From NCBI GenBank assembly GCA_949775045.1, contig OX459109.1, forward strand, positions 1,768,108 to 1,832,107: a stretch of 64,000 nucleotides of DNA, read 5' to 3'. Below are positions 32,001 through 35,000 of the stretch, in pieces (the first letter of the stretch is position 1; every line of letters begins with the position of its first letter). The notes under the pieces are model-generated. The model made no database searches. It was not told the origin of the DNA and saw nothing but the letters and a program-made list of their open reading frames with translations. The position numbers and the translations under genes were made by a program. The stretch is from Metridium senile (Eukaryota; Cnidaria; Anthozoa; Actiniaria; Metridiidae).

Positions 32001-35000
32001 AACATAACAATACAAACAAATGTACAAACAAAATATCTAAAACTCCCAATTGAAGGAAACAAAGAGAACAAACAAATTTACATACCAATGCACAAAAACA
32101 AAAAAATGAAAATGGATAAACAAACAAATTAATTAACACATAAATAAACAAATGAGCAAACAAACAAACACACAAACAAACAAACGAACAAATGAAGAAA
32201 CAAACAAACAAATGAAGAAACAAACAAACACACAAATAAATGAAGAAACACACATACAAATGAACAAACAAACAAACACACAAACAAATGAAGAAACAAA
32301 CAAACAAATGAACAAACAAACAAACACACAAACAAATGAAGAAACACACAAACAAATGAACAAACAAACAAACACACAAATAAATGAACAAATAAACAAA
32401 GAAATGAGTAAACAAAAAATGTATGCAAAAAAATTAAAAAAAAAAATTATAAGGCTAAAACTTTGTTTAATGCAAAGCGGCCAACACACAGGAGGCTAGA
32501 ACAAAGTGGTCTATGCTTACCCTATCCATGAGGCGTATTATCTGCAAGATGAGCTGGTCTTGTCGTAAATCATCACCATTCTTAAATAGAGTCTGTGAAA
32601 GTGAAAAAAAGTGAATATTGTAAAGAAATGTTGTTCATATGAGGCTTCTAAATACTGATTCAAATTTTATCTTTTTAAAGTATTACTAAGTAAAAAAGGG
32701 TTTACTTACAACATATTCTTGTTCGTCTACGGTTAAGAAGGTGAATTTTCCAGGCATTAAATGACTCTTGAATAGCCAAGCTTTTTCTGTAGAAATGATT
32801 TATAATATTTATTATTATGATTGCACTATGCTTTTCCCACAAAACACACTGTTACCACAAAACGCCCAGTTTTACAATAAATGTATAGTACATATAAGCT
32901 GATAAATGGATGAATTGGCTAATTAATTGATGGATGATTGAGAGAATTTGATGAACAAATGAATGGATGGCAGAATGGATTGATGGATGAGTGAATGACT
33001 GACTAGGAATATATAATTGAACAAATAAATGAATGAATAGATAAATGAGTTATTGAATGGATGAATGGATGGATGGATGAGTGAATGACTGACTAGAGGA
33101 GGGCCACAAGTTTATCAGTGTAAACTGTTTCGTGTTTTTACCCTCAATAAATAAAGTTGGTTATTATTATTATTACTAGAAATAAATAAATGAACAAATA
33201 AATGAATGAATGGATAAATGAGTTATTGAATGAATGAATGGATAAATGAGTTATTGAATGAATGAATGAATGGATAAATGAGTTATTGAATGAATGAATG
33301 AATGGATAAAAATTTGAATGACAATTAAGCAAACAAACTAATAAATGAGTGGATGAAAAAATGAATGGGTGAATGAATAAATGAATGAAACAGCGAACAA
33401 ACTAATGTATACATTGATGGGTAAACAAATGTATGTGAGTACTTACTTTCTTCCTGTGTTCCTAGTACAATGCCTTTAATCTTGACATCAGGATCTAGGG
33501 GGAGTGGTATGGGGGAAAAACTGCTAAGGTCTGGAGTATCCAAAAGTTCTCGAAATCTATTGATCTGTTGACAAAATGTAACAAAATGAGTGATATACCA
33601 CTGAACAATCAGTGTAAAAAACATATCCATGCCATTCAACCAATCACACAAAGCGTTAAATATACTCTAATGTGTACATTTTAAACCAATGAGATGGTAT
33701 ATTCTATTACCTTTCTATGCCTATTGCCACTATACTGAAGATATAAAAAAACATACCCATTCAACCAATCACACAAACCGTTATATATTCTATGCACTCT
33801 TTAAACCAATCAGGTGGTTTATTCTATCACCTTTCTGTGCCTATTGCCACTATACTGAAGAAGTAAAAAACATGTCCATGCCATTCAACCAATCACATCA
33901 AGCGTTATATATTCTAAGCACTATTTAAACCAATCAGGTGGTTTGTTCTATTACCTTTCTATGCCTATTACCACTATACTAAATAAATATAAAACATATC
34001 CATGCCATTCAACCAATCACATCAAGCGTTATATATTCTAAGCACTATTTAAACCAATCAGGTGGTTTATTCTATCACCTTTCTGTGCCTATTGCCACTA
34101 TACTGAAGAAGTAAAAAACATGTCCATGCCATTCAACCAATCACATCAAGCGTTATATATTCTAAGCACTATTTAAACCAATCAGGTGGTTTGTTCTATT
34201 ACCTTTCTATGCCTATTACCACTATACTAAATAAATATAAAACATATCCATGCCATTCAACCAATCACATCAAGCGTTATATATTCTAAGCACTATTTAA
34301 ACCAATCAGGTGGTTTGTTCTATTACCTTTCTATGCCTATTACCACTATACTGTGAGACTTCTTTCATAAGTGCTACAAGATGACCAATGAACTGTTTTT
34401 GTCTTGCTAACATGTTACGGCGAACTTGAAGCTCCCAGCCACCCTGGAACGACAAGAAATCCAGCATTATTGTTATTGTTATGGTTATGGTTATCATAGG
34501 GCATATGATATTTTTCTTATGTATCTGTATTTCACTTATACATTGAACGAATTTCAATTCATTATTCCTTTCACTCTGCATTTCCATTTAGAGATTAATA
34601 GCGCCCTGGGACCCCCGCAGTTGCCCTATACTACTTTGTCTGGCTGTCAACCAGCATGGTCATCCTTGCGGTGTAGTGGCCAACACATCGGACTAGAAAG
34701 CCGATTAAACCGTGGGGTTCAATTCCCACCAAGGGCATATGATATTTATCTCATCTATCTGTTATCATTATCATTAACCATACTGTCGTTATTGTATCAT
34801 AATTATAATTATACCTATCATTGTTGTTGTCATTGGCATTATTGGTATCATTATGGTTATCAATTAAACTTTAGCCCTACATTTGTTATTGTATCATAAT
34901 TACAATAATTATGATCGTTTTTGTTCTCATTGACATATTGACATTATCATTAATAATCAATGAGAAAATGACAAAAATCACAATGTTGACAAGAGTTATA

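Follow-up and report, generated by a model that had tools for sequence, protein, structure and literature searches.

A Young Six-Unit Tandem Array at an Exon–Intron Boundary of PIK3C3 Contains Candidate In-Frame Microexons

In a 64,000-nucleotide stretch of Metridium senile DNA (hereafter the window), we identified a head-to-tail minisatellite, above chance expectation, at the boundary of a PIK3C3 exon and the following intron. The array most probably represents a young local tandem duplication that was multiplied by unequal exchange, is normally removed with the intron, and is largely neutral. Tandem repeats at exon–intron boundaries are already documented, and the PIK3C3 array belongs to that kind, its distinctive feature being that each copy, as read from the sequence, makes up a complete 24-nt phase-0 candidate microexon.

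Results

The Gene and the Repeated Exon End

The PIK3C3 (VPS34) gene lies on the minus strand, and 27 coding segments were mapped with tblastn between 52415 and 27828. The segments were placed by hand from matches to a human protein query; segment 8 is a weak match (E 0.96), and more exons may exist than the 27 mapped. The exon adjoining the array (34327..34443, minus strand; 117 nt, phase 0 at both ends) is the 16th of these segments and not exon 18 as numbered in an earlier, sequence-only reading of the window. It aligns with PIK3C3 homologues at a segment that ends in SGNR.(R/K)K in most rows, and a phmmer search with 32 of its residues, the tail left off, gave weak matches (E 0.92–0.97), PIK3C3 in six of the six listed. 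The next coding segment (INRFRELL...; 33466..33564, minus strand) has the acceptor TTTTGTCAACAG and an approximate 3′ end. Among the matches listed, Actinia tenebrosa was the most similar in the region searched (78%) and Nematostella vectensis showed 79% similarity over the whole query, with a partial Actinia model reaching 82% over 86% of the query. Protein likeness thus places the gene among hexacorals, Actinia and Nematostella being the nearest of the matches listed. Of the 27 mapped segments, none but exon 16 overlaps any of the 98 tandem repeats reported by TRF.

The array occupies 33601..34353 on the minus strand (TRF edges 33615–34353), as delimited by TRF and unit alignment. The six copies claimed by the sequence-only reading at this exon end and splice site were recovered as 6.0 TRF copies (89% matches, score 1146) and as six alignable units; the tandem periodicity it described was also found, with a TRF period of 124 in place of its approximately 123 bp. 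TRF run on 40 dinucleotide-shuffled versions of the whole window found no array with a period of at least 60. The units start at 34350 (c0, the authentic exon end) and, within the intron, at 34226, 34102, 33978, 33854, and 33734 (c1–c5), the lengths of c0–c4 being 124, 124, 124, 124, and 120 nt. Each consists of a 24-nt exon tail encoding YSGNRHRK, a donor, and then about 100 nt of intron. Exon 16 contributes its final 24 nt (34327–34350) to c0, which takes in the coding end and the GT of the real exon. A dispersed or transposon origin of the unit was considered and rejected, as blastn against the window returned the six units and otherwise three matches of 12–15 nt.

All six units read TAT AGT GG(T/C) AAT AGG CA(T/C) AGA AAG followed by GT(A/G)ATAG. 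The repeated tail had been described as roughly 28 nt encoding QYSGNRHRK; what the six units have in common is the 24 nt of YSGNRHRK together with the AG just before it, and the Q codon CAG precedes only three of the five intronic copies. Units c0–c4 terminate in AG and abut the next copy, and an AG is thus found ahead of all five intronic copies. The five copied donors, GTAATAG or GTGATAG, that had been reported in the intron are indeed present in c1–c5, each following a copy of the exon tail. Their first bases lie at 34202, 34078, 33954, 33830, and 33710 (the authentic one at 34326), within 0–1 nt of the earlier estimates of 34201, 34077, 33954, 33829, and 33709. The candidate microexons are located, all on the minus strand, at 34203..34226 in c1 (donor GTAATAG, preceded by the weak acceptor-like site TTTATTTAG), 34079..34102 in c2 (donor GTGATAG), 33955..33978 in c3 (weak acceptor-like site), 33831..33854 in c4 (donor GTGATAG), and 33711..33734 in c5 (donor GTAATAG); c2 and c4 have the same acceptor-like site, CTTCTTCAG, which outscores the authentic acceptor, and that of c5 is similar to the authentic one in strength. 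The repetition of the unit also accounts for a crowding of CCAATCA motifs (CCAAT-box-like), 11 of the window's 27 on both strands lying inside 33601–34353 and most units containing two.

Strength of the Copied Splice Sites

The splice sites were scored with a matrix not trained on cnidarian sequences. On this scale, the copied donors reach 5.24 or 5.96 in comparison with 5.24 for the authentic donor, all five being equal or better. The authentic acceptor at 33564 scores 5.76, and the acceptor-like sites reach 7.88 in c2 and c4, 5.65 in c5, and 1.38 in c1 and c3; three of these five are thus comparable to the authentic site or better, and the other two are weak. By sequence, then, the copied splice sites appear intact at five of five donors and three of five acceptor-like sites, as in arrays of the IFI6/UBC type. 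Ranked among all GT dinucleotides of the minus strand, the array donors fall at the 95th–97th percentile; among all AG dinucleotides of that strand, the three acceptor-like sites with the better scores fall at the 93rd–98th, so that 3–5% and 2–7%, respectively, score as high. At mapped exon 12, the acceptor reaches 11.96, above the acceptor-like sites of the array.

Reading Frame and Variation among the Units

Extension of exon 16 to any of the copied donors would add 124–616 nt and run into a stop after VIEQTT in five of five cases. If the first one, two, three, four, or five copies are instead read as microexons, the frame stays open in five of five cases over as much of exon 17 as was joined. 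Because of these two outcomes, the array by its sequence would allow in-frame inclusion of microexons and penalize plain donor slippage. Slippage to the copied donors had been proposed in the sequence-only reading; the donor scores agree with that proposal, but it overlooked the stop in every extension and the AG before the copies. As an AG precedes each copy, candidate in-frame 24-nt microexons make the more coherent splicing hypothesis than decoy donors do.

Among the ungapped columns of the six aligned units, variation affects 2 of 24 in the exon-like part, both with synonymous changes, and 22 of the 95 that are intron-like; we detected no significant sparing of the exon-like part that would indicate constraint (Fisher's exact test treating columns as independent, P = 0.15). 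With c5, one of the most divergent units, left out, the numbers are 2 of 24 and 14 of 95 (P = 0.52). Synonymous transitions are possible at 8 of the 24 positions of the tail, and two changes would both be synonymous by chance approximately once in nine if all changes were transitions. That both are synonymous leaves room for constraint or for homogenization with the real exon. The acceptor-region block of the unit is variable at 4 of 12 columns and is tied with another block, and it is therefore not singly the most variable.

Age and Origin of the Array

The array is young and recently expanded. Counted on aligned bases, pairwise identities of the units range from 87.9% to 100%. No difference separates c1 from c3 across 124 nt, c0 departs from both at 5 of the 124 positions, and the alignment of c5 with c0 has 15 mismatches and 13 gap columns. 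The array also shows a two-unit pattern, the longest exact run being 269 nt at lag 248 (34048..34316, minus strand) versus 106 nt at lag 124. The longer run indicates that the latest visible expansion duplicated two units, and it suggests a recent change in copy number. The authentic exon end, c0, and some of its intronic copies form one recent family, which suggests that exchange across the real splice junction has been recent.

The first step would have been a tandem duplication that took the final 24 nt of exon 16 along with the donor and approximately 100 nt of intron. The tetranucleotide CAGT is found at the array edge farther from the exon (33600..33603, minus strand; GTTCAGTGG) and again at the exon edge (CACAGTATAGTGG), where the sequence reads CACAG|TATAGTGG. 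It is possible that this common CAGT provided the microhomology seeding the first duplication, by slippage or by pairing of the exon with the T-rich GTTCAG of the intron, a single 4-nt case that chance could also explain. Expansion to six units may then have proceeded by unequal exchange, the last step involving two units (248 bp). As the junction of such a duplication would have fused the T-rich AG of the intron to the exon tail, each intronic copy would be a 24-nt phase-0 pseudo-microexon by construction. The unit sequences and the exact repeat are direct observations, from which we infer the mechanism of duplication.

Comparison with Homologues

An insert of eight residues at the position following exon 16 was found in none of the 213 homologues examined among the matches listed, none of which is from this species. 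These 213 proteins are those listed among 2192 and 3052 hits, and the alignment kept spans the place in all of them. In comparison with the query, 126 of the 213 have three extra residues at that place and 83 have none; rarer length differences are of two residues (1 of 213), five residues (1 of 213), and six residues (2 of 213). One alignment was kept per protein, and a model with a repeated exon (P0013, labeled UNVERIFIED_CONTAM, Acipenser sinensis) was therefore counted as having no insert. In this model, the segment homologous to exon 16, ending in SGNRKKK, occurs three times in a row. We rejected it as a parallel to the repeated tail: the motif is present three times, but most of the exon is repeated and not an eight-residue tail. 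The triplication may reflect a tandem exon duplication or an error in the model or assembly.

Discussion

Relation to Known Systems

Among the open full-text literature, judged by titles and the beginnings of abstracts, we found no prior report of this PIK3C3 array, and a precedent in GPI intron 9 was not found there either. The earlier suggestion that arrays made of an exon–intron junction have seldom been remarked on holds only in part, as a survey of human genes and a paper of 1995 precede it. According to the survey, 162 alignments of human genes in segmental duplications contain tandem repeats at exon–intron boundaries, 27 intron modifications were left after manual inspection, and such repeats can give rise to alternative splicing and to new introns (De Grassi and Ciccarelli 2009, PMC2812944). 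As described there, those are likewise minisatellite-scale tandem repeats across exon–intron boundaries, able to alter intron structure or splicing, but they vary between human paralogues and come with transcript evidence, whereas the hexacoral array has an acceptor-like site and a donor in each copy and is known here from DNA.

The 1995 paper, by its title, concerns a minisatellite that provides multiple splice donor sites. To the extent that the title describes it, the PIK3C3 array is alike in supplying several donors. The unit of that minisatellite is reportedly much shorter and serves as donors; the PIK3C3 unit differs in measuring 124 bp and in having an acceptor-like site too. In human UBC, tandem dual-specific splice sites vary the number of units (PMC10809524). 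The PIK3C3 units resemble those of UBC in being bounded by splice sites and in preserving the frame whether they are included or skipped. The UBC unit is a whole coding monomer in which one AGGT acts in both roles and its use has been demonstrated, whereas the PIK3C3 unit is coding in 24 of 124 nt and has separate putative acceptor and donor sites.

Tandem duplication is also an established source of introns, being one of the intron-gain mechanisms listed in a review (PMC3443670). In potato RdRp, an intron was gained by tandem duplication over the intron 1/exon 2 boundary, with the new intron detected (PMC4974935); there, as in PIK3C3, a duplication crossing a boundary hands ready-made splice signals to the copy, the PIK3C3 array differing in its five extra candidate copies and in lying on the donor side. 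A further paper relates human alternatively spliced introns to tandem arrays (PNAS 2007, 104:882-886, by its title). The two cases have introns and tandem arrays in common, but, going by that title, the human arrays would give new introns and the PIK3C3 array would extend an old one. In Caenorhabditis elegans, intronic minisatellites have been linked with alternative splicing (PMC4039745).

Alternative Explanations

If the array is a largely neutral local duplication, as we favor, most transcripts would probably join the authentic exon 16 donor directly to the acceptor at 33564 and discard the copies. A copy included now and then would lengthen the protein by YSGNRHRK and, as it keeps the frame, might be tolerated; a copied donor used alone would lead to a premature stop. 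The six units abut the exon and no other match to the unit in the window exceeds 12–15 nt, which favors local duplication, and variation spread over the units with no significant sparing of the exon-like part is as expected of young neutral copies. Alternatively, as each copy combines 24 in-frame nucleotides with a preceding AG and a donor at least equal to the authentic one, the array could be a working set of microexon cassettes, stochastic or regulated inclusion of zero to five copies adding multiples of eight residues after SGNR.(R/K)K and giving a kinase of variable length. The synonymy of the two exon-like changes is consistent with this, and the UBC array offers a precedent in which isoforms differ in unit number (PMC10809524). 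We nevertheless find it unlikely, given that no such insert is present in the 213 homologues listed (none from this species), that the acceptor-like sites of c1 and c3 are weak, that the exon-like part shows no significant sparing (P = 0.15), that two synonymous changes would arise by chance about once in nine if all were transitions, and that comparable sites are not rare on the strand (3–5% of GT and 2–7% of AG). There is also only a slim chance that the array is a live source of microexons, with zero to five extra YSGNRHRK blocks in the messages, their number set by splicing and copy polymorphism and the exchange of units sharing variants with the real exon end; were this so, a minisatellite would be tuning a conserved lipid kinase.

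Five extra donors equal to or slightly above the authentic one could act as decoys that compete for U1, sometimes lengthen the exon or hinder splicing, and leave less functional message. All five read-through products stop soon past the authentic exon end, and regular use of the copied donors would therefore be costly in a conserved gene, which makes this role improbable. The identity of c1 and c3 and the 269-nt exact repeat, poorly handled by short-read assembly, raise the thought of an assembly artefact hiding a true locus of one or a few units; as c4 and c5 have indels of their own and diverge from the remaining units by up to about 12%, several distinct units exist, and we judge such an artefact very improbable. 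Recursive splicing, removing the intron unit by unit at dual-specific AG|GT sites of each copy, would draw on the AAAG|GT found at six of six exon–intron boundaries and on the capacity of AGGT sites to serve as both 5′ and 3′ splice sites, as reported for UBC (PMC10809524). Immediately before AAAG lies the copied exon sequence, which contains no pyrimidine tract, and we regard this last reading as very unlikely.

Under the favored explanation of a young duplication, the locus gives one snapshot of how a single event that places a T-rich AG from the intron directly before an exon tail may create ready-made, in-frame candidate microexons that unequal exchange can multiply. If transcripts include the copies, the locus would show directly, and in countable form, how minisatellite expansion gives birth to microexons in a conserved gene; if the copies stay out of transcripts, the array would provide a natural test of the silence of good-looking splice sites beside a real exon.

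Other Features in the Window

Several other repeats and coding frames were observed in or near the gene. A 125-bp near-duplication at 39026–39258, between segments 11 and 12, has gggag|gtgag in both copies and was considered as a second exon-junction array; it matches no PIK3C3 segment and was rejected. On the minus strand, a 475-codon open frame at 49537–50964 has matches to DDE_1 and HTH_psq and, at the cut-off, to a Tc5-type DNA-binding domain; by these matches it is predicted to be a pogo/Tigger-like transposase, located in the first mapped PIK3C3 intron, and it contains a 27-bp coding repeat at 49540–49757. Between mapped segments 12 and 13, a 2-kb array (36634–38632) consists of about 103 copies of a 20-bp unit and is open in long minus-strand frames, probably by composition. 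Just past the last mapped PIK3C3 segment, a 1.6-kb array at 26055–27684 has a period of 143 as well as periods of 282 and 425.
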